Below are positions 26,771 to 45,749 of a stretch of DNA of 64,000 nucleotides, piece by piece. Where the stretch lies: contig NZ_AYTW01000006.1 in NCBI RefSeq assembly GCF_002752635.1, forward strand, positions 1 to 64,000, written 5' to 3'. This DNA comes from Mesotoga sp. Brook.08.105.5.1. GTDB taxonomy: Bacteria; Thermotogota; Thermotogae; Petrotogales; Kosmotogaceae. How positions within the stretch are numbered: position 1 is the stretch's first letter; every line of letters begins with the position of its first letter. The position numbers and the translations under genes are program-made. Below the pieces are notes generated by a model that saw only the letters and a list, made by a program, of their open reading frames with translations, had not been told where the DNA came from and searched no databases.

Positions 26771-29700
26771 GTGAAAAAGACCTCATCAGTTTTACTGGCT
26801 ATTTTGCTTGTTCTTGTGGTTTTCTCAACCCAAGGTTGCTTTCTTTTTCGAAACGTAACTCTGTCAATAGAGAATTCTGAGCTATCCATTGGGATCGGGG
26901 AGTCAGAACAGATTCAGATCAAGGTGAAACCCGAGGATGCTACCGTGAAGTTCTCTTCCAGCAATGAATTGGTAGCGACAGTTTCAACTTCCGGAATGGT
27001 AACAGGCGTTTCTTTAGGAGAAGCAGAGATTACGATCGAGGCTACCAAAGACAAATACAAGAGCGCTTTGAAGAAAGTCAGCGTTCAAGTTGTGGGAGAA
27101 GAATCATTTTCCGTAACGTTTTCAGTGATTGATTCATCCGGAGCCGTGCAAGGAGCGAACGTCACTTTCAATAGTGAGACAAAGACCACAGACGCGAGTG
27201 GCAAAGCAGTGTTTGATGGTGTGTTGGCGGGGAACAAGGATTACACTGTGAACAAGGCAGGCTACAACGAAGCTATTGGAAGTGTTAACGTGGATGAGGA
27301 CAAAACTGTAGAAGTAACTCTTGAAAGGAAGACTTACATTATCACTGCGACAGCAGGAACCGGAGGAAGCATAAGTCCGGCTGGAAATGTCTCCATCGAG
27401 CATGGGGCGAACCAGACTTTCACTATGTCACCTGCTGTGGGTTATAGCGTAGAAGATGTTCTTGTAGATGGAGAGTCGGTTGGGCCAAGATCTACTTACA
27501 CCTTCAATAATGTGACTTCAAATCATACGATATCTGTTAGTTTCACGACCTTACCTCCCGATACATACACGGTGACCTTCAATGTGAGCGATTCGGAAGG
27601 AGCATTGCAAGGAGCGAACGTCACTTTCAATGGCGAGACAAAGGCGACGAATGATGAGGGGATGGCCGTTTTTACTGGGGTACTTGCGGGAAGTAGAGCG
27701 TACACGGTCAGTAAAGAGGGCTACAATAACTCAACCGGAAATGTAAACGTGGAAAGCGACGAGAGCGTCGATGTCACGCTGACCAAGAAAACCTACACAA
27801 TAACTGCGGGCGCAGGAAGCGGTGGAAGTATAGATCCTACAGGTGAAGTGATAGTTGAGCACGGATCGAGCAAGACATTCACTATGAGTCCTTCAGATGG
27901 TTACAGTGTGAAGGATGTTCTTGTAGATAACGAATCCGTTGGGCCAAGAGCTACTTACACTTTCAACAATATAACTTCAAATCATACGATATCTGTTAGT
28001 TTCACGACCTTACCTCCCGATACATACACGGTGACCTTCAATGTGAGCGATTCGGAAGGAGCATTGCAAGGAGCGAACGTCACTTTCAATGGCGAGACAA
28101 AGGCGACGAATGATGAGGGGATGGCCGTTTTTACTGGGGTACTTGCGGGAAGTAGAGCGTACACGGTCAGTAAAGAGGGCTACAATAACTCAACCGGAAA
28201 TGTAAACGTGGAAAGCGACGAGAGCGTCGATGTCACGCTGACCAAGAAAACCCACACAATAACTGCGAGCGCAGGAAGCGGTGGAAGGATAGATCCTACA
28301 GGTGAAGTGATAGTTGAGCACGGATCGAGCAAGACATTCACTATGAGTCCTTCAGATGGTTACAGTGTGGAGGATGTTCTTGTAGATGGAGAGTCGGTTG
28401 GGCCAAGATCTACTTACACCTTCAATAATATAACTTCAAATCATACGATATCCGTTAGTTTCAAGACCTTGCCTCCCGATACATACACGGTGACCTTCAA
28501 TGTGAGCGATTCGGAAGGAGCAGCTGTTCAAGGAGCGAACGTCACTTTCAATGGCGAGACAAAGGCCACGGATACCGAAGGAATGGCCGTTTTTACTGGG
28601 GTACTTGCGGGAAGTAGAGCGTACACGGTCAGTAAAGAGGGCTACAATAACTCAACCGGAAATGTAAACGTGGAAAGCGACGAGAGCGTTGATATAACAC
28701 TCATCAGACAAACCTATACCCTCACAGTGAATGCTGTCGGAGAGGGGACGGTCACTAAGAATCCCGACAAGGCAACATACACTCACGGAGAAGTCGTACA
28801 GTTAACAGCCAACCCGGCTGAAAATTGGATTTTTGCTGGCTGGAGTGGAGACCTAAACGGCTCCGCGAATCCAATAAACATTACGATGAACACAGACAAA
28901 ACAGTGACAGGTAATTTCGCAAGAGTATATACGGTAAGCTTCAACGTGAGCGATACAGGTGGAGCAGTTCAGGGAGCTAACGTGGCCTTCAACGGAGAAA
29001 CCAGGGCCACGGATGGCCAGGGGAAGGCAGTTTTCACCGGAGTTCTTGCCGGCAGCAAAGCCTATACAATTACTAAAGAGGGTTACAATAACGCCAATGG
29101 AGAAGTCAACGTCGATGGTGACAAGGCCATAAACGTTACCCTCACCAAGAAGACGTATACTTTTACAGTGAACACCGTAGGCAAGGGGACGGTCACTAAG
29201 AATCCTGACAAGGCGACCTATACACATGGTGAGGTAGTTCAACTGACTGCAAACCCGGACTCTGGCTGGAATTTCGACTCATGGAGCGGTGATCTTACTG
29301 GATCGACCAATCCGGTAAACATAACAATGAATGAGAATAAGACAGTTACAGCGAATTTCAGCGAGATAACTTACACCATAACCTTCAATGTGAGCGATTT
29401 GGAAGGAGCAGCTGTTCAAGGAGCGAACGTCGCTTTCAATAGTGTGACAAAGACCACAGATAGTCAGGGGAAAGCCATATTCACGGGCGTCACAGTAGGT
29501 GAAAAACAATATAGAGTGAGTAAAGATGGCTATGGCGATGTCTCGGGGAGTGTCATTGTTGATTCTAGTAAAAGTGTAGATGTTGTTCTGGAGAAAAGGC
29601 CTATGATTGAAGTGGTAGACAAAACCTTCTCAGTGAGCGAGCCTCTTCCAATATTAATTAGGGCTCAGAATCTTGGAGAGGTCAATCTAATTGAAGTTGT

Positions 29701-30031
29701 TATCCAGTATGATACTGAATATTTTGATGCTTCGTGGTTCTTCTCTGTCAGGTTGTCGAAGTGGCAGCCAGTTTTTAAAGATCCTGGCAACGGTATTATT
29801 CATATAGGACTTTCTCCTAATGAGGGGGCCACGAAGCTCATTGATGAGTTAACTAACATACTATCAATAGAGCTAACCCCGAAAAAAGCCGGAACGACAG
29901 AACTTGCATATACAAGTTACACTTCTGAAGGTGGTGTTCCTTTCGAGACGAATATTATCACCACTGGAGGGATAAGACTCAGCGGTTCAGATCTGATACT
30001 TGATGAAGGTAAAATAACCATCACAAACTGA
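26771..30031 (+). CDS. Repeat lipoprotein with Ig-like domains and C-terminal cohesin-like domain
   Basis: A 1086-residue surface protein. Signal peptide ends at STQGC (Cys23), a lipobox of weak form. A BIG2 Ig-like domain follows (about 30-112). Then six carboxypeptidase-regulatory/PEGA-like modules of the type YTVTFNVSDSEGA (starts near 114, 267, 420, 573, 720, 869) alternate with three ITAxAGxGGSIDPTG modules and two InlB-B-type modules (TVTKNPDKATYTHGE). Residues about 945-1086 form a cohesin-like domain (NLGEVNLIEVVIQYD). Modules 2 and 3 share 279 identical bases. GTG start follows AAGGAG. It probably is a surface scaffold or stalk. Confidence 0.85.
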   Translation: MKKTSSVLLAILLVLVVFSTQGCFLFRNVTLSIENSELSIGIGESEQIQIKVKPEDATVKFSSSNELVATVSTSGMVTGVSLGEAEITIEATKDKYKSALKKVSVQVVGEESFSVTFSVIDSSGAVQGANVTFNSETKTTDASGKAVFDGVLAGNKDYTVNKAGYNEAIGSVNVDEDKTVEVTLERKTYIITATAGTGGSISPAGNVSIEHGANQTFTMSPAVGYSVEDVLVDGESVGPRSTYTFNNVTSNHTISVSFTTLPPDTYTVTFNVSDSEGALQGANVTFNGETKATNDEGMAVFTGVLAGSRAYTVSKEGYNNSTGNVNVESDESVDVTLTKKTYTITAGAGSGGSIDPTGEVIVEHGSSKTFTMSPSDGYSVKDVLVDNESVGPRATYTFNNITSNHTISVSFTTLPPDTYTVTFNVSDSEGALQGANVTFNGETKATNDEGMAVFTGVLAGSRAYTVSKEGYNNSTGNVNVESDESVDVTLTKKTHTITASAGSGGRIDPTGEVIVEHGSSKTFTMSPSDGYSVEDVLVDGESVGPRSTYTFNNITSNHTISVSFKTLPPDTYTVTFNVSDSEGAAVQGANVTFNGETKATDTEGMAVFTGVLAGSRAYTVSKEGYNNSTGNVNVESDESVDITLIRQTYTLTVNAVGEGTVTKNPDKATYTHGEVVQLTANPAENWIFAGWSGDLNGSANPINITMNTDKTVTGNFARVYTVSFNVSDTGGAVQGANVAFNGETRATDGQGKAVFTGVLAGSKAYTITKEGYNNANGEVNVDGDKAINVTLTKKTYTFTVNTVGKGTVTKNPDKATYTHGEVVQLTANPDSGWNFDSWSGDLTGSTNPVNITMNENKTVTANFSEITYTITFNVSDLEGAAVQGANVAFNSVTKTTDSQGKAIFTGVTVGEKQYRVSKDGYGDVSGSVIVDSSKSVDVVLEKRPMIEVVDKTFSVSEPLPILIRAQNLGEVNLIEVVIQYDTEYFDASWFFSVRLSKWQPVFKDPGNGIIHIGLSPNEGATKLIDELTNILSIELTPKKAGTTELAYTSYTSEGGVPFETNIITTGGIRLSGSDLILDEGKITITN
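27515..28391 (+). repeat. 459-bp direct tandem repeat inside the lipoprotein gene
   Basis: 27515-27793 is identical to 27974-28252 (279 bases), and similarity continues to about 27932/28391 with few differences. The period of 459 bases is 153 codons, so the frame is kept. A third, more diverged copy follows. Confidence 0.95.
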
Positions 30032-30051
30032 TTCTTTGAGAGGCGATGACT

Positions 30052-30774
30052 ATGAATCGAGCAATTAAGATCTGCCTGATTTCAGTATTTATCATTTCAA
30101 TCATCTCGTTGACCGGATGCATAAAGCCAACATTCCAGGTTGTGGTACAGATAACACCGGCTGGCGGAGGCAATGTGACAGGGAGCGGAAGTTACAAGAA
30201 GGGTGAGATGGTTACATTGAACGCGATTAACTCCGAAGGTTATCGTTTCCTGCATTGGAAAAGCGACGATGCTTTCCTTACAGACCAGAACCCATACTCT
30301 TTTAAGATTACGAGTAATGCCAGTCTGGAAGCAGTTTTTGTTGCTGACGCAGGCGAAATATCGATCGAAGACGCCAATTTTGTTGTTGATGAAGAGGGCC
30401 ACGTAAAAATAAATGGAGTTGGGCTTGGGGCAGTGAATCTGATTGAAGTCGTAATTGATTATGACCCTAATGTTCTCAGCTGGGAAGGTAGTAGTTGCAG
30501 AGTAGCCGGTTGGATAACCATTGAAAAGAATCCCTCCCCTGGAATAGCCCATATAGCCATATCGGGTGTGTCAACCCAAATAAACGAAGAGAAAGAGTTA
30601 ATTCGTATGTATCTTCTGCCTAAGAAAGCAGGAATAAGCGATATCGAATTTGCGACCTACGAAAGTGAGGGTGGCGTGTTTTTTGAGACAAACTACATCA
30701 CCGCCGGAGGGCTGAAAAAGACTTACCCAGAACTGGGGCTTAAGAAAGGTGTAATAACAATAAATGAAAACTGA
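30052..30774 (+). CDS. Small lipoprotein with InlB-type and cohesin-like domains
   Basis: A 240-residue lipoprotein. Lipobox SLTGC (Cys23); one InlB-B-like repeat (VQITPAGGGNVTGSGSYKKGE, about 27-95); then a cohesin-like domain (about 103-240) with GLGAVNLIEVVIDYDPNVL, closely similar to the end of the preceding 1086-residue protein (shared AVNLIEVV, PKKAG, YxSEGGVxFETNxITxGG). Of two near ATG codons (30046, 30052) the second has GAGAGG at correct spacing. The gene starts about 20 bases after the previous stop, so they form one operon. Confidence 0.82.
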   Translation: MNRAIKICLISVFIISIISLTGCIKPTFQVVVQITPAGGGNVTGSGSYKKGEMVTLNAINSEGYRFLHWKSDDAFLTDQNPYSFKITSNASLEAVFVADAGEISIEDANFVVDEEGHVKINGVGLGAVNLIEVVIDYDPNVLSWEGSSCRVAGWITIEKNPSPGIAHIAISGVSTQINEEKELIRMYLLPKKAGISDIEFATYESEGGVFFETNYITAGGLKKTYPELGLKKGVITINEN

Positions 30775-30807: not shown

Positions 30808-31854
30808 ATGAAAACATTCAGAAGTTTTGTTTTTGTGCTTCTCATGGCGATCTTACTTTCCGGTTGCTACATCAAGCTTTATGAAGAGAACGGTTTGGAA
30901 ACAAGGTTAGATGGCAACGACATGGTTTTCATACTAAAATCGGAAGCTGATGCGATTGAATTGTTAATTGACGAGACGATAGATTTCTCAAAATTACTTG
31001 TACCTGATGACTATCTGAAGATAGTCAAGTATATCGATGAAAGTACTCTCATCGCCCTTGCAAGAGGGTCAACGATGAACCAAGGTGAAGAGGTACTGAG
31101 AATTGAAGGACTTACAGAAAAAAAACTTATTACTTCGATCAAGATATGGAATACCCAGGATATTTACCATGAATCAAACGGAACGGAACCAGAATTGCTG
31201 GGCGATTTCACAGGAGATGGTCAGGTCGAGGGATTCGATTTCATACCCTTTGCTCAGAGCTATGGAAATGCGCTTGGTTCTCCAGGTTATGATGCAATTT
31301 ACGACATGAGCTCGTTGGGAAATCTTGCCAGCAAAACATTTTCGGGAATTTGGGAGAAGATATATTCTCAGGAAGGAGTGCCTGACGGAAAGATCGATGG
31401 GCCAGATTTCATTGTCTTCGCCAACAACTACGGCTTCGCCAATCCATATCTCGGAACATGGACGTTCACCGGAGCAATTGATTATGAAAGTTCTTCATTC
31501 GGACAGGTCGATGCAACTGGAGAAGGTACTGCAACTATTCAGTCTTCAAATTTCAACTTCGTTGGAAGTGTAACTATGTCTTTTGAGGCCGATTATGAGG
31601 ACGAGAGTGGAAATCCCCTTCATTCAGAGATGACCACAACGATCAACAATGTCAGTTTTAATTTCGATAACCTTGTAATGACAATTGACGCAACTGTTGA
31701 AGATCCCACAGGTTCAGGCAGTACATACGATGTTCAGTTGAGAGGTTCATTAAGAACCGACGGGAATGCAGTCTATGCCGAAGTACCTTCCGGGGATATC
31801 TATCTTCTGAATCCCGAAAGAAAAATCGGCACTTGGTCTGGAAGCAAACAATGA
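30808..31854 (+). CDS. Lipoprotein with dockerin-like domain
   Basis: A 348-residue lipoprotein, lipobox LLSGC (Cys20). Residues 133-200 hold two calcium-loop segments about 60 residues apart: DFTGDGQVEGFD (133-144), a perfect D-x-T-x-D-G-x-V-x-x-x-D loop, followed by FIPFAQSYG, and PDGKIDGPD (192-200) followed by FIVFANNYG. This duplicated loop-helix is the dockerin type I pattern. The C-terminal 135 residues form a beta-rich domain (LGTWTFTG ... GTWSG) shared with the next gene. It lies in one operon with two cohesin-like proteins. Confidence 0.82.
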   Translation: MKTFRSFVFVLLMAILLSGCYIKLYEENGLETRLDGNDMVFILKSEADAIELLIDETIDFSKLLVPDDYLKIVKYIDESTLIALARGSTMNQGEEVLRIEGLTEKKLITSIKIWNTQDIYHESNGTEPELLGDFTGDGQVEGFDFIPFAQSYGNALGSPGYDAIYDMSSLGNLASKTFSGIWEKIYSQEGVPDGKIDGPDFIVFANNYGFANPYLGTWTFTGAIDYESSSFGQVDATGEGTATIQSSNFNFVGSVTMSFEADYEDESGNPLHSEMTTTINNVSFNFDNLVMTIDATVEDPTGSGSTYDVQLRGSLRTDGNAVYAEVPSGDIYLLNPERKIGTWSGSKQ

Positions 31855-31879
31855 AACTTCATTTGAGAAGGTGAGGATT

Positions 31880-32314
31880 TTGAAGCGAGTACTGCTTCTA
31901 TTAGTTGTTCTAATGATACTTCTGCTATCCGGGTGCATTTTCAAGTCAAATCCCGCCGGTTTTGTGGAAGTTGCCGGCGCCTGGTCCCTCTCGGGAAGGG
32001 TTATCTACGGTGAGACCGACGTATCGGGTACAGGAACTTTATACGTAACGAAGCAGGATGGAAGCTCCTTCAGTGGTACCGGATGGTACTTTGTCCTCAG
32101 TGCACCTGTAGAAGGAACAGTCTCCGAAAGACCCGAAAACTATCTTGTAATGCATGCAACGGTTACTTATGGTGATCAAGAAAGGACAGTCTACTTCACA
32201 GGACATGTTAAGGAATCCGAGAGCAAGGTCTCAGTCGAGGATGGTGAGATCTTCCTTGATAATCTTACGAAAAATGTCGGCACGTGGACTGGAGAGAGGA
32301 CAGTCGCACCGTGA
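31880..32314 (+). CDS. Small lipoprotein, beta-rich domain
   Basis: A 144-residue lipoprotein with lipobox LLSGC (Cys19). The body (AGAWSLSGRVIYGETDVSG ... DNLTKNVGTWTG) resembles the C-terminal domain of the previous dockerin protein, whose end reads YLLNPERKIGTWSG. No known function. TTG at 31880 gives a clean signal peptide beginning MKR and a fair ribosome site; GTG at 31871 is an alternative. Last gene of the plus-strand group. Confidence 0.7.
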   Translation: MKRVLLLLVVLMILLLSGCIFKSNPAGFVEVAGAWSLSGRVIYGETDVSGTGTLYVTKQDGSSFSGTGWYFVLSAPVEGTVSERPENYLVMHATVTYGDQERTVYFTGHVKESESKVSVEDGEIFLDNLTKNVGTWTGERTVAP

Positions 32315-33069
32315 CAGCAGAACTTAGGCCCGTTATTTCCTCATGGTTACCGTGTTTGCTGCAGAATATAAGTAGCAGTTGAGTATTCCTCGCATGTTTT
32401 CCCATGATACTTCGTACGCTTCTGATTGGGTTCGCACTTTGGAAATCAGATAGCTCAAAACTGGAATAGATAGTGTTCGTTCTTACTGTCTCCTTCAGAA
32501 ACGCTACCCCGCAGATCTAACTGCTTCGCGTCTTCGAGCAATAATCCATTTGGTACAGGAACCTCGATATTTACAAAGAATCCTTCTGGCACCAGAACTG
32601 TTTTCACAGCGCATTCACTTCATGAACTTCGGTACCGCGACCCCTACACAGTCTTCACGATTTTCACGTAAATCTTGATGAATAATCAAAAGTACGGTAG
32701 AAAATTCCCGTGTGTTTCTCTTAGAACCTGCTACAAATCCCGAGGTTTTTGGTCCCTTACGCCAACTTTCAGCAGAAGAGTCAAGTGTAATATCTTCCTT
32801 AAGTTAAAATTTACAATTCAGTCTTAGTGAAAGTCTGCAGCGATTAAATACTCATTCGTACGTTCTTAGTTATAGACAGACTTACTTGCATCTCCCTTAA
32901 TGATGTATACACGAACAGAACACTTAGTACAAAGGACAGCGTAAATTGCTGAGAAATTCAAGCAGATGATGATGTCTTTTGTTGTGATCATAGCTATGAT
33001 ACTTATGTATGAAGCGTGTATAATAAAACTGTACTTGAAGTTACTCGCCATCGTTTCGGAGGAGATCCT
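32315..33069. other. Intergenic region before the M30 protease gene
   Basis: About 750 bases with no supported gene. A TATAAT at 33019-33024 lies 45 bases before the next start codon but has no good -35. I see no other structure. Confidence 0.5.
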
Positions 33070-36000
33070 ATGATTAGATACAGGAATGCAATTCTAATGA
33101 GTGCTTTACTTTTCATAGCGTTGATATTCAGCAGTTGCGTTCCCAGGATTCAGTGGTTTACTGTTGAGGTTGTTTCTGAACCGGACACAATTTCGATTGC
33201 CCTTCTAAAAGATATCGAACAGGCGAATTATGAAGCTTCGGATGTTCAGAAAACACCGCTAGTTCTTAACCTAAGACCCCAGGAGACTGTAGTAGTCAAA
33301 GTTATAGATGAAGAACCACTTGAAGAAACCGATGTCGTTCATGTTTTTGATAGCTGGGCTGACGGATCTGTAGCCAACCCAAGGGTGATTACGGCGGATT
33401 CAAACAAGAAATTCGAAATCAAGACGAAGAAAACTGTAAGAGTTTCTATTACATCAAATCCGAAAGGTCTTGTTCAAATCGAAGGAAGCGGTTTCTACCC
33501 TGTGGATACTGTACTGACACTGGTAGCTCCCGGTGAAGTCAGTGAATATCACTTCTCCCATTGGAAGGTCAATGCAATCGCTGATTACAATCACGAACTG
33601 ACCATAAAGCTTGATTCTCCTGTCATGATAGAGGCTGTGTACGAAAAAGAGGTTCTTAGGGCCCTCAAAGTTGAGACGGAGCCGAAAGGACTAGAAGTTA
33701 CCATAGATGGCAAAGAGGTCGGCAGTCCTTATGTTGCTGAGGTTGAAGACGGAGCCTCACGTACAATTGGATTCGTTACTCAGGAGAAGGATCTCAATAG
33801 CTTAGTTGGTGGTCCAGATACTCGGTATTCCTTCAAGTCATGGACTGATCAAGATAGAACCAACCCCAGAAATGTGGTTATGAAAAGCGATCTCTCTCTA
33901 GTAGTGGTTACAGGAACTGAATACCTTGTTCAGGCTTCAACGGTTCCTGAGGGAATTGCTACTCTGAAGGATTCAAACTGGTTTGCAAAGGGATCTTCGA
34001 TTTCCTTCGAGGCCCCGGTGGTATCCGGCTATGAGTTTTCGCACTGGGAAGTGAACGGTGAGCTTATAGATGGCAGAAGCCTAGCGCTGATTGTTGACTC
34101 TCCCAAAAGAGTCACTGCCCACTATGAACAAAACGGGTATGTTTTTTCCGTCAACACAGAACCCTCTGGACTTGAGGTGAGAATCAATGGAGTGACGAAG
34201 ACTTCTCCGGCCTCCTTTTCGGGTACTCATGGTAGCTCTGTGACTGTCGAGATTCCGGGTCCGCAGATGATGGATGGATCGGAGTTCGTCCCTGGATTCG
34301 ATACTCGCTACACATTCAGTAAATGGAGTGATTCCAATACAGCCAATCCGAGAGTAGTCTTACTAGAGGCAGATATGGAGCTTTTCGCAAATCTAAAGAC
34401 AGAGTATCTTGTGCAAACGGCTACCTATCCTGAAGGGATTGCAGAAATCCATGGAACTGGTTGGAAAGTCAGAGGTTCTTCTTTTTCTTACGAGTCAAGT
34501 GATTCAATCGGCTATAACTTTTCACACTGGGAAGTGAACGGTGAGCGCGTAGATGGAAGGATAATCGTCCTGGAAACGAACAGCCCGATGATGATTGTTG
34601 CGGTCTATAAGAGCAAGGAAGAGTCAACGCTTGAGGTTCTATCAGATCCTTCAGAGTTGGTCTTTAATCTCAATTCCGGAACCTATTCATCGCCGAAAAG
34701 TTTCGTTTTTGAGAAGGGCACTTCCGTTCAAATCTCATTCCCTGCTTTGCAGGAGAAGGACATAGATGCGGAGTTAGTTGGAAACGATACTAGATACATA
34801 TTCTCAAAATGGGCAGATGGATCGACAACAAATACAAAGACCTTTGAACTTGGAGCCGATACGGGGCTAAAAGCCATTTACACGACGGAGTTTCTTGTAG
34901 AAGTATCATCTGAATTTGCTCAGATTGATGGGAGCGGCTGGCACAAAAAGGGAAATGTTCTTAGTCTTACGGCTCCAGAGGTATCGGGTTTAAGATTCAC
35001 AGGCTGGCTAGTTAATGGGAGTACAAAAGAGCAAAACCCCGTAGCAGTGACGATTGACTCGCCCAAAAAGGTCGTTGCAGTGTACGAGAAGATAGAGGAA
35101 ACAAATAAGACTCTGAGAGTCTCGACAACTCCTGAAGGACTTTTGATAAAGCTCGATGACAAACAGATTGTGTCACCTTTCGAGTTAGTTGCTGAAGAAG
35201 GAAGCACACATTCTTTCTCGGTCATTTCACCGCAAGAGAAAGACTTATCGAATCTTGTTACGGGCACAGATGTAAGATACGTGTTTACCTCCTGGAACGA
35301 TGGGGGGACTTCTGTAAACAGAACGGTGGAGCTGGATTCAGACTTCTCCTTTACTGCGAACATGAACAAGGAATTAAAGGTAGAAACTGCGACTCAACCT
35401 TCAGGTTTAGTTGAGATAAGCGGCTCAGGTTGGTACTCTGAAGGTACCAATATCTCGTTAAAAGCAAGTTCAGTGGCGGGATATAACTTTATGTACTGGA
35501 TCATCAACGGAGTTAATGCAGGTGACAGTACCTCTATCGAGTATGTAGTAGCCGTGCCTCTTTCAGTGAAAGCCGTCTACAACTCTATTCCTGTTGTATC
35601 CTTTGAGAATGTGAGCATTGCCAAAGGAGATACACTGAGATTAACTCTTTCCGATTATGCAAGCGACAAGGATGGCGACAGCCTAGAGTATACGCTTCTT
35701 AGCGGGCCGGGGTCGGTATCAAAGGGAATATACACAGTTGATTCTTCAGTGATCAATGCGGGAAATTACGACATATCAATCCGAGTAACTGATGGCAGAG
35801 GTGGATCAGTTACAGGGATGTTCACTTTGACCGTTACCGAAGAGAATAGCGCGCCAACTGCTCCAAATACGCCGTTCCCTGTTAGTGGTTCGGTCGATCA
35901 AGAATTGAGCCTAACGCTCTCATGGGAAAGTGTGGATCCAGACGGCGATCAGTTGGTCTTTGATGTTTACTTTGGAACCTCTTCTGATCCAGCAAAAGTA

Positions 36001-37401
36001 GCCACGGGCATTTCTTCCGGAACCTGGCAGACCGGAGAACTAACAGAGGGAACAACCTACTTCTGGAGAGTAGTTTCAAGAGACACTAAAGGAGCCACTG
36101 CTGAGAGCTCTCTTTGGTGCTTCATAACCAGGGACAGCGTTCCTGCTGACGGTGTGGACAAAGTTGGCCCGGTCTACACAGGAGATGTGCTCTTGGTTAG
36201 TAACGAGAGTGAAAGTGGAACAAGCAGAGCATTCACTGGAACTCTTTCTGAAAGCTTCCTCCCGACCTCTTTTACCACTGCTGGCAATCTCGAACGAGAA
36301 GCATATATGGTCAATCCTGAGATTCCGCTTCCGTATGAGGCTTTTCCAGAGAATATCGCTTCTCCATCAGATACGTTTGAGTTGGCTGGTGTAGGCGATA
36401 CAAGATCATTCTGGGTCCTAAACTTTGCGACGAACAAGTATTATCAGCTTACGGCGACACTGCTGTACGTCGGGCAACACTCTGAGGTTTGGGTAGAGAG
36501 CACTGACGTTATTACGGAATCAAAAGCTGCAGAATTGGGAAGTGAATTTGACAGCGCAATTTACCCGCTGGTAGCCGAGTATTTCTACACACCTTCCGAT
36601 GTAGATGGAAACGGAAGGGTTCAGATTCTCTGCTTCGACATACAGGACAACTTCGCGACGACGGGAGCGTATGTGGGCGGCTATTTCTCTTCTGGAGACC
36701 TTTTCAACATCAGTAACTCAAATAGAGCTGAGATATTCTACATAGACACATATCCGACGATGCATTACCCGAAGGACAAACATGTGGATGTTTCAAAGGC
36801 ATACTCCACTCTTGCGCACGAATTCCAGCACATGGTGAATTTCAACAGAAATTACCTGGTAGAAGGCGGAGACCCAATGCCTTCCTGGATAAATGAAGGT
36901 CTTTCGATGGCAGCTGAGCATCTATATAGTGGTGTCCTTACGAGAAGGATCTCCTACTACAACTCCTCGACGAATATCCAGAACGGTCACTCGTTGGTTT
37001 ATTGGGGGGACAACAACGACACATTGTCGAACTACGCGTTGTCATATCTTTTCCTGCAGTACATACGAGCTCAGGTGGGAACTGAGAGTGTATACAAAGA
37101 TATCCTCCTGGATAAGAATAACGGTTCGGGGGCTATCACAAATGCTTTAGCCAAATATGGAATGGTTAAGACACTGGGAGAAATAATGACTGATTTCAGA
37201 CTGGCTCTTCACCTGAAGAATCCTACAGGTCCGTATGGCTTTATGGATGACTCGGACTTCGATGGTATAACTGAGAGACTTTATACAGGTTCGGCAAAAG
37301 AGCTAAGAGGAGGATCCGCGATCTTCAAGAGCATTTCCGACTCATATATAGAGCCAGGCGATCAGGGATCAACTATTCAGTATGCAGGAATAAGCGGGTA
37401 G
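33070..37401 (+). CDS. Giant surface zinc metalloprotease, M30 (hyicolysin)-like, on a repeat stalk
   Basis: A 1443-residue lipoprotein (lipobox IFSSC, Cys23). ATG at 33070 with GGAGGA upstream is preferred over 33016. About five alternating units of a PEGA-like module with the recurring phrase DTRYxFxxWxDxxxxNPR and an InlB-like module (GxGWxxxGxxxxxxAxxxxGYxFxHWxVNG) make a stalk to about residue 830. A cadherin-like domain and a fibronectin-like domain follow. The C-terminal domain (about 1035-1443) has HEFQH at 1250-1254 and Glu1276 in WINEGLS, the HExxH...E zinc site of M30-like peptidases. It ends at a hairpin shared with the convergent next gene. Confidence 0.85.
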   Translation: MIRYRNAILMSALLFIALIFSSCVPRIQWFTVEVVSEPDTISIALLKDIEQANYEASDVQKTPLVLNLRPQETVVVKVIDEEPLEETDVVHVFDSWADGSVANPRVITADSNKKFEIKTKKTVRVSITSNPKGLVQIEGSGFYPVDTVLTLVAPGEVSEYHFSHWKVNAIADYNHELTIKLDSPVMIEAVYEKEVLRALKVETEPKGLEVTIDGKEVGSPYVAEVEDGASRTIGFVTQEKDLNSLVGGPDTRYSFKSWTDQDRTNPRNVVMKSDLSLVVVTGTEYLVQASTVPEGIATLKDSNWFAKGSSISFEAPVVSGYEFSHWEVNGELIDGRSLALIVDSPKRVTAHYEQNGYVFSVNTEPSGLEVRINGVTKTSPASFSGTHGSSVTVEIPGPQMMDGSEFVPGFDTRYTFSKWSDSNTANPRVVLLEADMELFANLKTEYLVQTATYPEGIAEIHGTGWKVRGSSFSYESSDSIGYNFSHWEVNGERVDGRIIVLETNSPMMIVAVYKSKEESTLEVLSDPSELVFNLNSGTYSSPKSFVFEKGTSVQISFPALQEKDIDAELVGNDTRYIFSKWADGSTTNTKTFELGADTGLKAIYTTEFLVEVSSEFAQIDGSGWHKKGNVLSLTAPEVSGLRFTGWLVNGSTKEQNPVAVTIDSPKKVVAVYEKIEETNKTLRVSTTPEGLLIKLDDKQIVSPFELVAEEGSTHSFSVISPQEKDLSNLVTGTDVRYVFTSWNDGGTSVNRTVELDSDFSFTANMNKELKVETATQPSGLVEISGSGWYSEGTNISLKASSVAGYNFMYWIINGVNAGDSTSIEYVVAVPLSVKAVYNSIPVVSFENVSIAKGDTLRLTLSDYASDKDGDSLEYTLLSGPGSVSKGIYTVDSSVINAGNYDISIRVTDGRGGSVTGMFTLTVTEENSAPTAPNTPFPVSGSVDQELSLTLSWESVDPDGDQLVFDVYFGTSSDPAKVATGISSGTWQTGELTEGTTYFWRVVSRDTKGATAESSLWCFITRDSVPADGVDKVGPVYTGDVLLVSNESESGTSRAFTGTLSESFLPTSFTTAGNLEREAYMVNPEIPLPYEAFPENIASPSDTFELAGVGDTRSFWVLNFATNKYYQLTATLLYVGQHSEVWVESTDVITESKAAELGSEFDSAIYPLVAEYFYTPSDVDGNGRVQILCFDIQDNFATTGAYVGGYFSSGDLFNISNSNRAEIFYIDTYPTMHYPKDKHVDVSKAYSTLAHEFQHMVNFNRNYLVEGGDPMPSWINEGLSMAAEHLYSGVLTRRISYYNSSTNIQNGHSLVYWGDNNDTLSNYALSYLFLQYIRAQVGTESVYKDILLDKNNGSGAITNALAKYGMVKTLGEIMTDFRLALHLKNPTGPYGFMDDSDFDGITERLYTGSAKELRGGSAIFKSISDSYIEPGDQGSTIQYAGISG

Positions 37402-37426
37402 GTAGCTAATACAAGTTGAATAGAGC

Positions 37427-37494: not shown

Positions 37495-40400
37495 TTACTG
37501 CTTGACTTCAACATCCAAGTGGATTGCATAATATCTTGCAGGACTTACAGAAATCACAAGATCCGAACCTTTTATTGTCATTTTTCCCGGAGCTGGACTG
37601 CTAGAAGGCAGAGAACCCTCTGCATACCCCTGAATCTTAACGGGGTCAGAAACACTTTGCAACCGCATGTTCGGTCCCAAGACTATCGTCAGTTTGCCAT
37701 TCTTATAGGTAACAGAAGCTCCTTCAACTTTTTTCTGACCTGCATAGATATCTTGAGTAGAAGGCCCCTGCGTGTCGAAGTAATACCACCACGTTGCCCC
37801 AGCTCCTGGATGATAGTCTCCACCCCAGGCGGTCTCTTCCTTCCAGACTTGGGGATCTGTGGGAGTAAGCTTTATCTCGACAACCGCATCGTCCCAGAGT
37901 TCATCAGTCCCGGTTACAAGAGTTGCCGTGTTCTCAAGTGTGAACTCCTGCACTTCGCAAGGCAATACTGCTTCCAGTATCAGGTTCTGCTTGTTTGAAC
38001 TCAATGCACTTATGAGAATCACATCACCACAGCCTGGAAGGAAATCTTCGTCTGCAGTATCAATAATGGTTTCAACGAGCGACTTGTCCCCATCCGGGAC
38101 ATCTGGGTTGAACATAGTTCTCCACGAGCTCCAGTTAATAGAACCTTCCATTATCGTCCATATGGCAATTTGAATGTGCCTGTAATCAACACCCGGATAA
38201 TCACCGTCTCTGAATCTGTTTAGAATATAGTTGATCCTGGCCATCTGTGTACTTGGTGCGCCACCCTCGTAAACGTCCACTATTGTGTATGGACCTTCAA
38301 TACCAGGAACATTTACCTCTGTGCACCAACCGGGGTATGTTCCTTCCATGTAACCCGAAACTGTTGCACTTATGTAGGAATCTACGCCCATTACGTAAGT
38401 AATTCCACCTGAACCGTCGAATGAGAATTTTCTCAACGTGATCGAGAATTGTATAACTGCAGAATCTGTCAGCTCCATCGGGAAAGGCAATGGGTCGGGG
38501 TCGGTACCGACTATCTGGAAGCCTTCAGGAATATACGTGAACTCATCGTCCAGAGTCGCAGTTGCATTTGTTGAGGTACTGTTAGTGATCTGGAGCATCG
38601 AACTGTAGGAATCATCTGCTGTGTTTGCTGGTGCATCAGCCGAAGCTACTACAACTATTCTGTGTTCAGCGGAAGCATCTACTGGTGTGAAGAGTGAAGG
38701 TCCGAAGCCGTGAACAGTGGACAATCCGGATGCCAAATTGCCGAGAGAGACTTGTGGAAGCGTCTCAATGGTGATCCAATTGGTGCCATCGTAGTATTGG
38801 AGTTCTATGAGCAGTTTCACATTCTGAGCTTCACTCAGGCCGCTATTAGTAACCGTTACGGCCCCTTGATAAGAGTGCTCACTAACATCTGATTCAAGTG
38901 TCCTCGTTGCCGTTATTGTGTAGTCGATTTCCTTTTCGAATTCATCCACGTCGTAGGTTATAGAAGTTGGATTAACTTCCTTGTCTATCTCCCATGAATA
39001 TAGCTTGCTTCTATTCCAGAAGAATTCAGCTTCAACTTCAGCTTCTAGTGTGACTGTATCTGGTACGATTATAGTCACAGTCTCGTCGTCAGTATCATAT
39101 TTTGTATTTGTATCTTTACCAAAGATATCGGCTGTGTTGTGTAGAGGGTATTGACCTGGAGCACCGCCCATGTTGGCTACTGAGACAGAGTAGGACTGAG
39201 TCCAGCTAGCAGTCGTCACTTGCCAATCTCTTTTAATATTTCCAGAAAGAGTGAGTCCTGCAACCGAGAATGGATCAAAAGTATCCTCTACATATGCGTT
39301 CTCGTCTATCTCGGTTACATCAGGAGATGGTACTGTCTGAGTTGTTTCAAGAGTATCGGAGGCGCCGTCTATTGCATTTACTACAACCTTGAAAGGAGCA
39401 GCGTAGGCTCCGGGATTGAACCCCTTAAAGGAATATGGAATAGTCTGTTCGTTCCCAGGTGCGAGAGAAATAATTATCGTATTATAACTCTTGATTGTAC
39501 TTCCGTTGAAATCTTTAAGAACTATCGATACAGCTATATTGCTGAGTGTAGTATTGCCTGTATTGGAAACAGTAGCTACACCGGTAAGGGTTGCTATGTT
39601 TGTCTCCTCAACAGACCTGGTAGCCACCAGGGTGTAATTGAAGGTACCGGAATCACCCGTACCTAGAGTGAGACTCTGAGGGGTAACACTCTTGTCTATT
39701 ATCCAGCTGTACTCCTTAGTCTGATCCCACTTCATGTCATGTTCGTTTTCTATGTCTAGATCGTTGTCTGGAGGAACAATAATGAAGACTCTTTCTTCAT
39801 CACTATCGAGTATTTCTTCAGAATCCTCACCGTATATATCTACCGTGTTATCAAGAGGGTATTCATCAGGTGCGGCCCCCGTGTTGGTAGCTCTCACGCT
39901 GTAGCTTACACTCCAGCTGTTAGTGAGAGAATTCCAGTTTGCACTTTCTGTTATGTTGAACCAATCACGATAGATGTTTCCTTCGATCTCAATTCCAGAC
40001 ACACTGAATGAAAGGAAGGTATCCTTTACAAATGCGTCTTCATCATACTCTGTAACATTTGGAAGCGGCAGGGGCTGATCCGTCTCAAGATCATCTGAAG
40101 CTCCGTCATTTGCCTTCGCAAATACCTTAAACGGTGCCTTGTACGAGGTAGGATCAAATGTGAAGGAGTAAGGGAATCCCTTTTCTGCTCCAGTTGCCAG
40201 AGTAGCTATTGTGTCGGTGAAAGTACCTATCTCCACACCGTCTGCATCTTTAAGAACTATTTCGACATTTATGTTTGTAAGAGCTACATTACCCGTGTTA
40301 GTAACAGTGGCAAGGCCTGTTAGAGTTGCGATATTCGTCTCTTCCAGGGTCCTGGTTGCCAGAATGGTATAAGCGAAGGTGCCGTCTTCTCCTTCATTCA

Positions 40401-42597
40401 GTTCTATACTTTCAGGTACTGCGCTCTTTTCAATTTCCCAGCTGTACTCCTTAGTCTGATCCCATTCCATGTCATGTTCGTTCGCTATTGCCAGGTCGTT
40501 GTTTTCCGGAACCAGTATCGTGACAGTTGCATCGTCGCTTCTTTCTTGCTTTGTATCATCTTCAACGAGAGTCACGGTATTTGGAAGCTTGTACTCTCCC
40601 TCTTCTTTTTCCAAGTTCATTATATTAAATGTATAGGTAGTTGCCGCCGGTGTCTCTGAAAGAAGCCAGGGCCATGCATAATCTGAATCGGGAGTAACTT
40701 CAAATCCTACCGGCCCCATATAAGCATCATTCACAGTGGCTGTCTTGTCGAACTCTAAAAGGGTTGTAGGCGAAATCGGACCGGCAAGAGCTCCCGTATT
40801 GGTCTTTGATACAGCGCCGGAAACGACTTCTGCCTTGACGCTATAGTAGTATCCTTCAACAAACGAGTAATTGGAGAAATCGAAGTTTCTGGTTACCACA
40901 TCTCCTGGATTCAGTCCAGATAGTGTCTCGGTGACTGTTGCCTGGACAGGATTGAACGTTCCTCCATCACTTGACTCCAGAAGGCTTATCGTCAAATCGA
41001 CATCTGCTGGAATCGTTGAAACAGAAGAGTTACCTACTTCGACTTGCCCTTTGTAAGAAAAAGTATTAGTAGAGTTCTCGGTCAGCGTTCTTGTAGCATT
41101 AATTGAATATGTGACATTTTTATCTTCCTCTATATCCAGATAAACTGTCTCAGGAGCTACAGATTTTTCAATTTCCCAATCGTATTCGATTTCTTTTGCC
41201 CAGGAGAATGTTCCCGTAACGGTTGCTTCAAGAGTAAGAATATCTTCCTGGGGTTGGGGTGTGGAAACCATGACTCTTGCAAAGGCTTCTCTCTTGGTTA
41301 AGGTGTCATTTTCAGTCAAGGTCGCATCGTTTGTAAGAGTATAACTTCCAAGAGGAGCATCAACATTTGTTATGACAATTGAGTACTTTTTTGATCCACC
41401 ATTTACGTCTGTCAGTACCCAAGGTGAAACGCTCCAAGGCCATGTGCCTGTATTATCGACCGAGAATCCGAGATTCTCGAATTCAACAAGATTTCTCGGC
41501 ATGTCAATTACTGAAGCACTTTCATCAACGAATGTCTGTGATGAAGGCGAAATCGGAATCAGATGATCCTCAAAGTCATCCACGATCTCTGGCCAATTAT
41601 CAGTTGCTTCTGCCAGAATTCTGATCTCTGAATAATTACCTGGATTGAAAACGAAAGTGAAGGGCTTTCCAATTCCAACCAAGTCGCTTGCAGCTACAGC
41701 CGTATTTGAACTCGTTTCTATAAGGGTCTTAGAATCCATCTCAACCCAGTTGCCGCCATTCTTCCCCAAAAGAAATACTTTCAGCCCAAGCTGATCTGCT
41801 TGAAGAGAACCTTCGTTGGTAACGGTAGCGATCCCTGTTAAGCTGTATGTGTCAGTTACCGCAGGGGTGAGTCTGGTCGCGGTCAATGTGTATTCAACGC
41901 TCGCAGAATCTCCTTGCTTGAGATTGCTGATTACTTCCGGACTTGCCTCCTTAGTTATCTCCCAATCGTAATCAGTCACTCTTGAAAGATCAACTTCGCC
42001 TTCAACATCCACTTTTATTAAAGGTCTGACTTCAATATTTGGATCAGTTCTAACAGGCACAAAGTACACACAAGGTCCGAAAGAATAACCCTCGATAGTT
42101 TTGCTGCCAGAAGATCTCTCAAAATAGCCTACTATTGCAAAATATATACCTCTTACATCTTCCGAAAGAATCCCGAGAGGTATAACTATCTCTTCTGTTT
42201 GAGAGAGTGCCGGATCGAATTGAAAGATGTTCGGCAGTCCATCGGGATCAATGAAACCGTTTTTTGAGGGGAAAGATTGATTGTTCAGAGCCGTCGCCGC
42301 TCTTGTTTCCTTTATTCTCCAGCTATCGAACATTTCGTACTTTAAGTAGAGCGATGCGCCGGAATCTACATCGTTCTCAACACGGTAAATAAGCTTACCT
42401 ATAACTGTAAATTTGTTAATATGCACAGAACTCTCATAAAATCCCTCATCGTTCTGCATGGAGTAATTAATCTCAAGTCCTGTATTGAAGTTACCAAGAT
42501 CAATGGAATCGTATTCACTATCTATTGGTCTTACGCAACTACTAAAAAAAACTAAAAGTAGTGAAATCATTCCAGTGAAAATCAAAAACTTTCTCAT
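37495..42597 (-). CDS. 1700-residue repeat lipoprotein with thioester (TQXA)-like domain
   Basis: Lipobox FFSSC (Cys21). Five long repeats of about 245 residues begin near 205, 467, 712, 957 and 1197, each opening with a phrase like EYSWEIEKSxxPxS and then ATRTLEE...NIATLTGLATVTNTGN, ending DNTVDIYGEDxxE. Near the C-terminus, Cys1425 (GWCTEVN) and Gln1476 (HIQIAIW), with ARINYILN and YPG between, match the thioester-domain pattern of Gram-positive surface adhesins. A last domain starts EETAWGGDYHPG. ATG follows GGAGGTG. Likely a long surface fibre or adhesin; not homologous to any enzyme I recognise. Confidence 0.8.
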   Translation of the reverse strand: MRKFLIFTGMISLLLVFFSSCVRPIDSEYDSIDLGNFNTGLEINYSMQNDEGFYESSVHINKFTVIGKLIYRVENDVDSGASLYLKYEMFDSWRIKETRAATALNNQSFPSKNGFIDPDGLPNIFQFDPALSQTEEIVIPLGILSEDVRGIYFAIVGYFERSSGSKTIEGYSFGPCVYFVPVRTDPNIEVRPLIKVDVEGEVDLSRVTDYDWEITKEASPEVISNLKQGDSASVEYTLTATRLTPAVTDTYSLTGIATVTNEGSLQADQLGLKVFLLGKNGGNWVEMDSKTLIETSSNTAVAASDLVGIGKPFTFVFNPGNYSEIRILAEATDNWPEIVDDFEDHLIPISPSSQTFVDESASVIDMPRNLVEFENLGFSVDNTGTWPWSVSPWVLTDVNGGSKKYSIVITNVDAPLGSYTLTNDATLTENDTLTKREAFARVMVSTPQPQEDILTLEATVTGTFSWAKEIEYDWEIEKSVAPETVYLDIEEDKNVTYSINATRTLTENSTNTFSYKGQVEVGNSSVSTIPADVDLTISLLESSDGGTFNPVQATVTETLSGLNPGDVVTRNFDFSNYSFVEGYYYSVKAEVVSGAVSKTNTGALAGPISPTTLLEFDKTATVNDAYMGPVGFEVTPDSDYAWPWLLSETPAATTYTFNIMNLEKEEGEYKLPNTVTLVEDDTKQERSDDATVTILVPENNDLAIANEHDMEWDQTKEYSWEIEKSAVPESIELNEGEDGTFAYTILATRTLEETNIATLTGLATVTNTGNVALTNINVEIVLKDADGVEIGTFTDTIATLATGAEKGFPYSFTFDPTSYKAPFKVFAKANDGASDDLETDQPLPLPNVTEYDEDAFVKDTFLSFSVSGIEIEGNIYRDWFNITESANWNSLTNSWSVSYSVRATNTGAAPDEYPLDNTVDIYGEDSEEILDSDEERVFIIVPPDNDLDIENEHDMKWDQTKEYSWIIDKSVTPQSLTLGTGDSGTFNYTLVATRSVEETNIATLTGVATVSNTGNTTLSNIAVSIVLKDFNGSTIKSYNTIIISLAPGNEQTIPYSFKGFNPGAYAAPFKVVVNAIDGASDTLETTQTVPSPDVTEIDENAYVEDTFDPFSVAGLTLSGNIKRDWQVTTASWTQSYSVSVANMGGAPGQYPLHNTADIFGKDTNTKYDTDDETVTIIVPDTVTLEAEVEAEFFWNRSKLYSWEIDKEVNPTSITYDVDEFEKEIDYTITATRTLESDVSEHSYQGAVTVTNSGLSEAQNVKLLIELQYYDGTNWITIETLPQVSLGNLASGLSTVHGFGPSLFTPVDASAEHRIVVVASADAPANTADDSYSSMLQITNSTSTNATATLDDEFTYIPEGFQIVGTDPDPLPFPMELTDSAVIQFSITLRKFSFDGSGGITYVMGVDSYISATVSGYMEGTYPGWCTEVNVPGIEGPYTIVDVYEGGAPSTQMARINYILNRFRDGDYPGVDYRHIQIAIWTIMEGSINWSSWRTMFNPDVPDGDKSLVETIIDTADEDFLPGCGDVILISALSSNKQNLILEAVLPCEVQEFTLENTATLVTGTDELWDDAVVEIKLTPTDPQVWKEETAWGGDYHPGAGATWWYYFDTQGPSTQDIYAGQKKVEGASVTYKNGKLTIVLGPNMRLQSVSDPVKIQGYAEGSLPSSSPAPGKMTIKGSDLVISVSPARYYAIHLDVEVKQ

Positions 42598-43179: not shown

Positions 43180-45249
43180 TTACTGCTTCGAGTAGATTCC
43201 AAAGAGCGCAAGATCGGTCAAATTGGCGCCAACTGCGTCATCATTGTCTAAATCACACAGAGAGGCAATGGTGTCCCAATTTCCGTCACCAATTCTTTTG
43301 AAGTAATTCTTCTTGAATAGCTGGAAGTCGGCTTCATCTATGTAGCCATCATTGTTGATGTCAGCGGGATTGATTCTTCTTTCGACGACACAGTCGAGAC
43401 TGGGTTCATCCTGATATGAACCGGAGAGTCTGACGGACTTCAAAACGGAACTGCTCGGTTTGCCCGTCAGATGAAGAGTAACGATAGCGCCGGGTATAGC
43501 CGAATCAAGACCGGCGAAGTTCAGAGAAAGCTCGATATGGGTGCTTTCATCAGAAGTGATTATCTTCCTCTGCTTTTCGTCCCACCTCTCGTTTACTGAA
43601 ATCTCTACAATGTCTGCTGCAGCGAGTTCGAGAGAAACCGTAATCGACGATATGGGAAGTGCGGTTTCGAGCATCTTGAGGGCAACAGTTCCTGTACCGT
43701 TCTTCATCAAAAGCGGGCATAGAACGCCTATCTTAGTTTGGCCATTTCCAAGAGTGAAATGAACCTGGTTCTCTTCATAAGTTATTAAAGACATGAAGAG
43801 CCCGCTATCTGTCTCGTCGTACCAGTTAGAATTTGGGCTGGTGTTCGAGTTCAAGGAGGTATTGTTTGTCGAACCGGGGAAAGGATCTCCATCATCGCCT
43901 CTGTTTTCCCGAGACGAGGAATCCATAAGCTCATCCCTCCCGTCGGCCTGGAGCAAATAAACTTGCTTGCGAGTACCGCTATTCCCGTAAACGGAATCGT
44001 CGATATGATAAACAAGGAGACCTTCTCCCGGGAGAGCGTAGTCGAATCCGGATTTTACTCTATTTTCGAGAAGAAAATACTCATCTGGTCTGCTGCTGTT
44101 CGAGAACTTGAAAAGTCTGCCGCCGACTTTTACATCTTCAAGGAAGAAATCGCCACAGAACCCCGAGATCTCAAGAGGTACAGACCAGCCTAGTTTCGCT
44201 TTGGACCACGCGGAGAAATGCGCAGGCAAATCTCCCGGTCTTTCAACGTAGTTCCAACAACCGTAAGCCATAATTCCCCAGTATCCTATGCCCCATGTCG
44301 CTCCCGAATAGTCGTAAAGGTCTGGGAGGCCGAATAGGTGACCTGTTTCATGTGCCATTACACCAATCGTCGCAATCCCTCTCACCGGAGCTCCGCCTAT
44401 TTCCGTTGGCCAGTCAACCCTCTCAGGCTGAATTGTGAAGAGGTCTGCGGTTACTCCGTCATTCGTCGCGTAATCGAACAATCTCGACTGAAAAGACCAA
44501 ATATCCAGCTGATCTCCAGAGAGTTCTCTCCCCATCCCTTCATGAATAACTATTATCATATCGACAACCCCATTATCATTATTATCATAAAGTGAGAAGT
44601 CTATATCCTTGTCGGCCTTTGAAATAGCTTCCCTAACGAGTTCGAATTCATCTTGCGCATAAAAAGCCTTAGATTTGTCAGCGGTATACCAGCCATACAC
44701 TTCTCCGTACAAATTAAGCGAACCATTAGACACTTCGCTATAATAGTCTCTCACAGAACCCAAGGGAGCGAGTTCAGGATAAGAAGAGAAGATTATCTCT
44801 TCAAAGTCCTCTGGCAAATACTGATGGGGGTAATCGGGGTAATCAATGAGAATTACTGGTACCCTGATCGTTCCTTCTTTGTTAACCGGTTCTTCGCGGA
44901 TTTCGAAAGCCGTTTGAGTAGTGAAGTTCAACGATTCGAAAAGCTGCCAAGGTTCAAATGAGGGAATGCCGACAGGCTGATCGATCCCTTTAAGGCGATC
45001 TGATCTGCGTATCTCTCCCTCGACAACTACTCCATAATGCCAGAAACGGCTTGAAGGATCTTGCTTGAGCGGCCTTCCATGAAGATCTAGGATGAAGTTA
45101 TGGTACTCGTCACCAAATTGTCTGAATTCGATCCGCGTACCGTCCGGCTGATAAGCAGCTATGACTCCGTCAAAACTGGGTGCTCCAGTAAGAACAGCTG
45201 AAAAAAGAACGACTGCAATGATGCAGATAAGAAAAGATCTGCCGATCAT
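43180..45249 (-). CDS. Secreted M6-family zinc metalloprotease with C-terminal dockerin-like domain
   Basis: A 689-residue protein with a Sec signal (SFLICIIAVVLFSAVLTGA) and no lipobox. The M6 (immune inhibitor A-like) catalytic domain spans about 100-400, with H300ETGH304LFGLPD310, the HExxHxxGxxD zinc motif, and the following WGIMAYGCWNY Met-turn region. A beta domain follows. Residues 630-679 hold two calcium-loop segments: DINNDGYIDEAD (630-641), perfect, and DLDNDDAVGANLTD (666-679), slightly irregular, forming a dockerin-like tail. Its start overlaps the stop of the upstream cohesin-like lipoprotein by ATGA. Confidence 0.88.
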   Translation of the reverse strand: MIGRSFLICIIAVVLFSAVLTGAPSFDGVIAAYQPDGTRIEFRQFGDEYHNFILDLHGRPLKQDPSSRFWHYGVVVEGEIRRSDRLKGIDQPVGIPSFEPWQLFESLNFTTQTAFEIREEPVNKEGTIRVPVILIDYPDYPHQYLPEDFEEIIFSSYPELAPLGSVRDYYSEVSNGSLNLYGEVYGWYTADKSKAFYAQDEFELVREAISKADKDIDFSLYDNNDNGVVDMIIVIHEGMGRELSGDQLDIWSFQSRLFDYATNDGVTADLFTIQPERVDWPTEIGGAPVRGIATIGVMAHETGHLFGLPDLYDYSGATWGIGYWGIMAYGCWNYVERPGDLPAHFSAWSKAKLGWSVPLEISGFCGDFFLEDVKVGGRLFKFSNSSRPDEYFLLENRVKSGFDYALPGEGLLVYHIDDSVYGNSGTRKQVYLLQADGRDELMDSSSRENRGDDGDPFPGSTNNTSLNSNTSPNSNWYDETDSGLFMSLITYEENQVHFTLGNGQTKIGVLCPLLMKNGTGTVALKMLETALPISSITVSLELAAADIVEISVNERWDEKQRKIITSDESTHIELSLNFAGLDSAIPGAIVTLHLTGKPSSSVLKSVRLSGSYQDEPSLDCVVERRINPADINNDGYIDEADFQLFKKNYFKRIGDGNWDTIASLCDLDNDDAVGANLTDLALFGIYSKQ

Positions 45250-45749
45250 CTGACAGTCACCTCAACTGTCGAAGAATCCGACTTCACATTGACGACGGAC
45301 AAATCAACGTCCAGCGCATAATGCGAACGAATCCTTAACGTGCCACTTTTTGTGGCGCGGATTTCGATTTCGATAAGGGCTTCACTTCTCGCTTCTTGCT
45401 GATCGTAAGGGAAAGCACCGTGGATGACTGCCTGTGAACGGGTATGACAGTCGGCAATCAATAATAGCTCATCCAATAGAGACTTTACGGCTGTTATCTC
45501 AACTCCGCCAAAAGCCTCGAGCACTACTTCAAAAGCGTAGATCCCGTCGAACTTATTCGACACTAGGCGGATTACGGAATCTGAGCCTTCTTCGATTGTG
45601 AATCTCGATCTATCAAAACCTATTTCAGCTTCCTCCGTAGGCTTCTTGATAATCCAGCATCCGGAAGCCAGGAGAAGAATGATTAAGATCTGTATAAGGA
45701 AACACCTCTTAACCCAGTAGCTGCTTTTCGAAGAATTCAAGCTTCTCAT
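45246..45749 (-). CDS. Cohesin-like lipoprotein coupled to the M6 protease
   Basis: A 167-residue lipoprotein, lipobox LASGC (Cys31). The mature part is a single domain (about 40-167) with the strand pattern of cohesins: FTIEEGSDSVIRLVSN, then FDGIYAFEVVLEAFGGVEIT, SEALIEIEIRATKSGTLRI and a final SSSTVEVTV. Similarity to the other cohesin-like domains here is in pattern more than residues, so the call is moderate. The ATGA overlap with the dockerin-tailed protease suggests it anchors that protease to the membrane. There is no ribosome site before the ATG; a TATAAT lies only seven bases upstream. Confidence 0.65.
   Translation of the reverse strand: MRSLNSSKSSYWVKRCFLIQILIILLLASGCWIIKKPTEEAEIGFDRSRFTIEEGSDSVIRLVSNKFDGIYAFEVVLEAFGGVEITAVKSLLDELLLIADCHTRSQAVIHGAFPYDQQEARSEALIEIEIRATKSGTLRIRSHYALDVDLSVVNVKSDSSTVEVTVR

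Follow-up and report, generated by a model that had tools for sequence, protein, structure and literature searches.

Cohesin-dockerin pairs are among the tightest protein couplings known and have become a standard tool of bioengineering, yet what they do outside cellulosomes is, to our knowledge, a largely open question. Here we describe such a system in a window of 64,000 nucleotides, the whole stretch of DNA analyzed, from Mesotoga sp. Brook.08.105.5.1 (Kosmotogaceae, phylum Thermotogota; contig NZ_AYTW01000006.1; genome G000, 2.99 Mb in 61 contigs). Open reading frame calls mark positions 26771-45749 of the window as a lipoprotein island, for which an earlier note, made from the sequence alone, had proposed a cohesin-dockerin platform built around proteases; every open reading frame that it named exists. 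We think it likely that the island encodes a cohesin-dockerin system that is non-cellulosomal and belongs to the cell envelope of Thermotogota, and that probably comprises two binding pairs: the cohesins of a 1086-residue and a 242-residue lipoprotein with the dockerin of a 348-residue lipoprotein, and a 167-residue lipoprotein with the dockerin of an M6 metalloprotease.

Non-cellulosomal cohesins and dockerins are already known (Peer et al., 2009, as far as cited in PMC8542988). Like the examples 2xdh, 2vo8, and 2jh2, the Mesotoga modules have the cohesin fold and dockerin-like paired loops and are single surface modules rather than parts of a cohesin-array scaffoldin; unlike them, Thermotogota have conserved, co-encoded lipoprotein pairs, their dockerins are borne by M6 proteases, propellers, and beta-helices, and the second dockerin loop is interrupted. 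By structure, the closest relatives are cohesins of Clostridium perfringens glycoside hydrolases (2vo8 and 2w1n), also single cohesins on surface or secreted proteins, which differ in being borne on glycoside hydrolases of a Gram-positive organism. With type I and type II cellulosomes the system shares the cohesin fold, with type II cohesins nearest to our profile, and its best dockerin match comes from a cellulosomal protein of glycoside hydrolase family 48 (GH48); unlike a cellulosome, with which it cannot be classed, it is anchored by lipid, and the Mesotoga genome has neither a tandem-cohesin scaffoldin nor a dockerin-bearing glycoside hydrolase. Dockerin-bearing proteases have precedents. 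In the Cloacimonadota, the complex of 'Ca. Stygibacter' has dockerin-bearing peptidases (S8 and C25), a scaffoldin of 3755 residues with tandem cohesins and carbohydrate-binding modules, and two glycoside hydrolase families (PMC8542988); both systems have dockerin peptidases outside Firmicutes, but in Mesotoga the peptidase is of family M6 and the cohesins occur singly, on lipoproteins. Cellulosomal dockerin proteases include an S8 protease of Clostridium thermocellum whose double dockerin goes to ScaD and a papain-like protease of Ruminococcus flavefaciens whose X-dockerin goes to ScaE, and for both the clostridial and the ruminococcal cellulosomes it has been proposed that the dockerin anchors the protease to the cell (PMC12484212). 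The arrangement that we propose for Mesotoga would likewise keep a protease on the cell through a dockerin and a cell-bound cohesin; unlike these cellulosome accessories, the protease has as its candidate receptor a small lipoprotein encoded in its own operon, and we found no cellulosome. Cohesin and dockerin proteins have also been proposed as adhesins in consortia of anaerobic methanotrophic archaea (PMC10553843). Our literature search, whose coverage was incomplete, found no paper on surface dockerins of Mesotoga or Petrotoga or on M6 proteases with a dockerin. New in the window system are the lipoprotein base, the co-encoded pairs, the absence of any dockerin-bearing glycoside hydrolase, and the unusual dockerin loop.

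The first three genes of the proposed system belong to a four-gene run on the + strand (1086, 242, 348, and 147 residues) with intergenic gaps of 14-33 bases. Pfam at its cut-offs misses all of the cohesins and dockerins of the window, and for this reason we built genus-, family-, and phylum-wide profiles; these custom profiles do find cohesins and dockerins in the PDB. The 1086-residue stalk lipoprotein (26771..30031, +) has a signal peptide with the lipobox STQGC, followed by Big_2, CarboxypepD_reg, and InlB B-repeats (Pfam), and ends in a domain (29600..30028, residues about 943-1086) recognized by the cohesin profile. The 242-residue lipoprotein (30046..30774, +), which the earlier note had read as 240 residues and which starts two codons earlier, consists of one InlB B-repeat and a C-terminal cohesin domain (30352..30765, residues 102-241). 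Our cohesin profile A3, an alignment of 17 cohesin-like domains with relatives gathered from the genus and family, retrieves 22 PDB chains with E values of up to 1, all of them cohesins (the best at 4.7e-6, type II being nearest in sequence), and the cohesin family PF00963 is the sole Pfam family that its members match (11 of 17). The window domains themselves fall below the PF00963 cut-off (13.1 bits for the 242-residue protein, against 24.1 needed), which a homologue in a genome of the same order (L091) passes with 26.9 bits. The 1086-residue protein's domain scores E 2.2e-47 with a profile whose seed includes it; with a profile from which the window's own families were left out, it is found at E 1.8e-8 and the 242-residue protein's domain at 1.1e-10.

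The structural evidence concerns the 242-residue protein. An AlphaFold2 model of its cohesin domain (29-row alignment) has a predicted local distance difference test score (pLDDT) of 97.7 and a predicted template modeling score of 0.90, and cohesins alone make up both its top 50 Foldseek matches and its top 50 VIA-align entries in the PDB, with no unrelated beta-sandwich family among the top 50. The best match is 2vo8 (Z 17.5, root-mean-square deviation 1.6 A over 127 residues), and the matches include non-cellulosomal cohesins such as 2xdh (Z 16.5). By the fold of this model the 242-residue protein's domain is a cohesin, and we count the C-terminal domain of the 1086-residue protein as one too because of its score with the leave-out profile and its 39% identity, in the alignment, to the modeled domain. 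Two of the three cohesin lipoproteins that had been claimed for the island therefore stand; the third, of 167 residues, is a probable case only and is taken up below.

The partner modules were recognized in the same way. Profile A4, built from 13 aligned dockerin-like domains, finds the GH48 dockerin 2y3n_B first in the PDB (2.1e-8, two matched stretches), and a profile of three M6 dockerin domains alone finds the same chain at 6.6e-7, its nine best matches all being dockerin chains, with calmodulins behind. Pfam's Dockerin_1 scores the window dockerins below its cut-off. Judged by these matches, the paired calcium loops that the earlier note had seen are those of dockerins, carried by both the 348-residue protein and the M6 protease. 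In the 348-residue lipoprotein (30808..31854, +), a small N-terminal beta-rich domain precedes the dockerin (31189..31446, residues 128-213), and a C-terminal domain shared with the 147-residue protein follows it. The first calcium loop, DFTGDGQVEGFD, fits D-x-[ND]-x-D-G-x(5)-D except for T at position 3, and the second is broken by inserted residues between its positions 4 and 5 (YDM...PDGKIDGPDF). Across homologues, lipoprotein-type dockerins have a well-conserved first loop of the pattern D-x-[NTD]-x-[DN]-x(6)-D and a second that, in our reading of the alignment, starts as YDIxPA and picks up again about 12-30 residues on as PDGxIDxxDF; this second loop looks like a dockerin loop that an insertion has divided. 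The 689-residue M6 metalloprotease (43180..45249, -) has a signal peptide without a lipobox, the HExxH active site in the form HETGH, and the matches expected of an immune inhibitor A-type M6 protease (PF05547 at 9.7e-25 in Pfam, TIGR03296 at 2.1e-56). Its C-terminal dockerin (43183..43371, residues about 627-689) has the loops DINNDGYIDEAD and DLDNDDAVGANLTD, the first perfect and the second extended by 2 residues; the long insertion of the lipoprotein type is absent. The M6 dockerin is a separate subtype, since a dockerin profile without the M6 rows recovers it weakly (E 0.17). The lipoprotein setting, the calcium-loop chemistry, and the M6 metalloprotease as one dockerin bearer were thus all correctly anticipated, as was the lack of glycoside hydrolases: Pfam detects none among the proteins of the interval 26771-45749, and none is among the genome's three dockerin proteins.

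Cohesins and dockerins of these types travel together. Among the 103 Thermotogota genomes of our comparison sample, A3-type cohesins occur in 21, and dockerins are present in all 21 of these as against 16 of the 82 others (Fisher 3e-12, with genomes treated as independent of relatedness). Nearly all of the cohesins (43/45) lie no more than 2.3 kb from a dockerin; of the two that are unlinked, one lies close to where its contig stops and the other beside a weaker dockerin. Four genomes of the genus, two of them incomplete, lack both modules. At the retrieved loci, genes with a cohesin only carry it at the C-terminus, often behind a long repeat stalk, the dockerin of a lipoprotein is usually 130-290 residues from the lipid anchor, and lipoprotein-dockerin genes nearly all adjoin a cohesin gene. 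In genome G000 itself, four cohesins match the A3 type and three dockerins are present. A second locus of the kind is on its contig 59 (L004, 1410-8356), with a stalk-cohesin protein of 746 residues and a cohesin-dockerin-beta-helix lipoprotein of 1558 residues; close by are an integrase-like gene and a long array of repeats resembling CRISPR (clustered regularly interspaced short palindromic repeats).

Judging from gene order, the constant client of the cohesins of the 1086- and 242-residue type is the neighboring dockerin lipoprotein. The 1086-residue stalk and the short 242-residue lipoprotein would each present a cohesin at the C-terminal end, and this cohesin may clasp, by way of calcium, the dockerin near the lipid anchor of the 348-residue lipoprotein encoded in the same gene run, on whichever membrane face these lipoproteins are exposed. 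The result would be a set of cross-linked envelope lipoproteins forming a stalk-like assembly. The clasp might also bridge two membranes, either the cell and its detached 'toga' or two cells; this is conceivable because the cohesin is at the far tip of the stalk and the partner dockerin close to its own lipid anchor, but we think it improbable. If it were so, the interrupted second calcium loop could mark a dockerin subtype with recognition rules of its own.

For the protease, the comparison points to a different partner. A single shared platform, on which the cohesins of the 1086- and 242-residue proteins bind both the M6 protease and the 348-residue lipoprotein, and the 167-residue protein is one further cohesin, might be expected from the fact that all of the genes lie inside 19 kb, both in the window and in genome G008, and from the promiscuity that cohesin-dockerin pairs can show within a species in cellulosomes. 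Across genomes, however, these cohesins do not go together with the M6 dockerin, which is why we read two pairs: a dockerin-bearing M6 is present in only 2 of the 21 genomes with A3-type cohesins (G000 and G008), and two others (G015 and G101) have such a protease and no A3-type cohesin. Its dockerin, moreover, is of another subtype, lacking the long insertion in the second loop, and it has an overlapping partner gene of its own. A shared platform therefore seems unlikely to us, and the earlier view of a platform built around proteases is not supported. Across the phylum, the protease appears as one client among several, since other dockerin bearers are mostly beta-propellers and beta-helices, with one caspase-like peptidase, the last being a cohesin-dockerin lipoprotein with a C14 peptidase domain in a genome of another family (G022; L096, 9064-13803).

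The partner gene in the window encodes a beta-rich lipoprotein of 167 residues (45246..45749, -), whose gene is upstream of the protease gene and overlaps its start by four bases. The arrangement recurs. We found ten intact dockerin proteins without a lipobox, four of them M6 proteases and six of about 840-920 residues, some recognized as beta-propellers, and each adjoins a same-strand lipoprotein gene of 165-213 residues (10/10, as against 3/107 control genes), which suggests a general rule of a secreted dockerin cargo with a small lipoprotein receptor. The M6 proteases are the most telling subset. The phylum has 13 M6 genes, each accompanied by a partner gene for a small lipoprotein, and the kind of partner goes with the dockerin: 4/4 dockerin-bearing M6 proteases pair with a beta-rich lipoprotein and 9/9 dockerin-less ones with a TPR-like lipoprotein, a class whose nine members are mutually related, though in Pfam most of their TPR matches miss the cut-off and the L162 partner was joined by BLAST only. 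We had considered that every small M6 partner might be a cohesin; the TPR-like partners of the dockerin-less proteases led us to reject this, and the rejection became our strongest control. In the M6 tree the dockerin group requires two changes, both forced by well-supported branches, and the gain of a dockerin and the change of partner therefore coincided at least twice. The M6 partner in G101 also shows a weak relationship to the lipoproteins that accompany propeller-dockerin proteins (E 0.064; 0/1000 shuffles as high), which leaves the dockerin as the element common to the two systems. These partner swaps are our best evidence that the small lipoprotein recognizes the dockerin.

The small lipoprotein could instead act specifically on the protease, whether as inhibitor, chaperone, or maturation factor, and have nothing to do with the dockerin. 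The co-encoded TPR-like lipoproteins of dockerin-less M6 proteases suggest as much, making a small partner a general feature of these enzymes, yet the partner family switches exactly where a dockerin is gained, at least twice, and one lipoprotein family also accompanies dockerin-bearing beta-propellers that have no protease, so that we hold this explanation to be doubtful. We favor the second pair proposed above, in which the M6 protease would be secreted without a lipid anchor and the 167-residue lipoprotein would act as its receptor, keeping it on the membrane through the C-terminal dockerin. Together the two pairs may serve to keep a protease, and proteins that resemble sensors or scaffolds, attached to the surface instead of losing them to the medium. 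A simple design would then be repeated within one phylum: a secreted cargo, ranging from proteases to propellers, that bears a dockerin and has its probable receptor in a small lipoprotein encoded with it. Co-encoded pairs make the non-cellulosomal function testable gene by gene, with the M6 set supplying natural plus/minus controls, and, relatives of thermophiles being included, thermostable orthogonal pairs are likely. M6 proteases at loci from Ignavibacterium (L116) and Zixibacteria (L130) also end in dockerin-like paired loops, which our profile missed; the fusion of protease and dockerin may be wider than Thermotogota.

Several results weigh against the two-pair reading. The kinship of the genomes inflates the co-occurrence counts, and part of the adjacency may merely mirror lipoprotein-rich islands. 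The interrupted and degenerate second loop of the 348-residue protein's dockerin means that two-site binding is not assured, and in many dockerin proteins a cohesin stands just before the dockerin, so placed that it could bind within the same chain. The 167-residue protein has no match in Pfam or the PDB, its AlphaFold2 model (3 rows) is poor (pLDDT 49), and hhalign gives the cohesin profile a probability below 3% against the 167-residue set. The structural matches of the model, at Z about 3 to antibody and major histocompatibility complex folds, are not informative, and the protein's score with the cohesin profile is matched by 10 of 1908 shuffles (537 of 1908 for the L028 homologue). In the phylum, the family is confined to the three genomes with this type of M6 dockerin, a search with it giving mainly signal-peptide matches beyond them. 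With its cohesin-like length and beta-rich make-up, the protein is a probable cohesin, and a probable cohesin-like receptor for the M6 dockerin. Three further sets were considered as cohesins, namely the N-terminal beta-domain, the M6 pre-dockerin region, and the Thermotogaceae lipoproteins; hhalign gave no convincing probability for any of them, and they were not called. That the cohesins and dockerins act in cis or as purely structural modules, the dockerin folding onto the preceding beta domain or cohesin of its chain as in an X-dockerin dyad and stiffening a stalk with no partner in trans, is the least likely of the explanations, even though in at least a dozen dockerin proteins a cohesin immediately precedes the dockerin and the degenerate second loop suggests altered function, for neither the 348-residue family nor the M6 protease has a detectable cohesin in cis, although each has a linked cohesin gene or lipoprotein, and the partner gene changes along with dockerin gain.

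The remaining genes of the island encode more lipoproteins. The run of four ends with the 147-residue lipoprotein (31871..32314, +), kin of the C-terminal domain of the 348-residue protein: a profile of that domain scores it at 19.8 bits (E 3.8e-5), with 8.1 bits for the best of 1000 shuffles. After the run, and before the pair formed by the 167-residue lipoprotein and the M6 protease on the - strand, come two large lipoproteins. One, of 1461 residues (33016-37401, +), is a probable second metalloprotease by its HExxH motif, in AHEFQHMVN, and a weak match to the NCBIfam family MXAN_6640; no dockerin is detectable in it. The other, of 1700 residues (37495-42597, -), is made of repeats, the number of which differs strongly among species, its relative at L022 having 2654 residues. 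Just before the island, at 25791-26660 (+), a 289-residue trypsin-like or HtrA-like protein without an obvious signal peptide is encoded, and in several relatives (L022, L023, and L025) this gene is directly upstream of the cohesin run.

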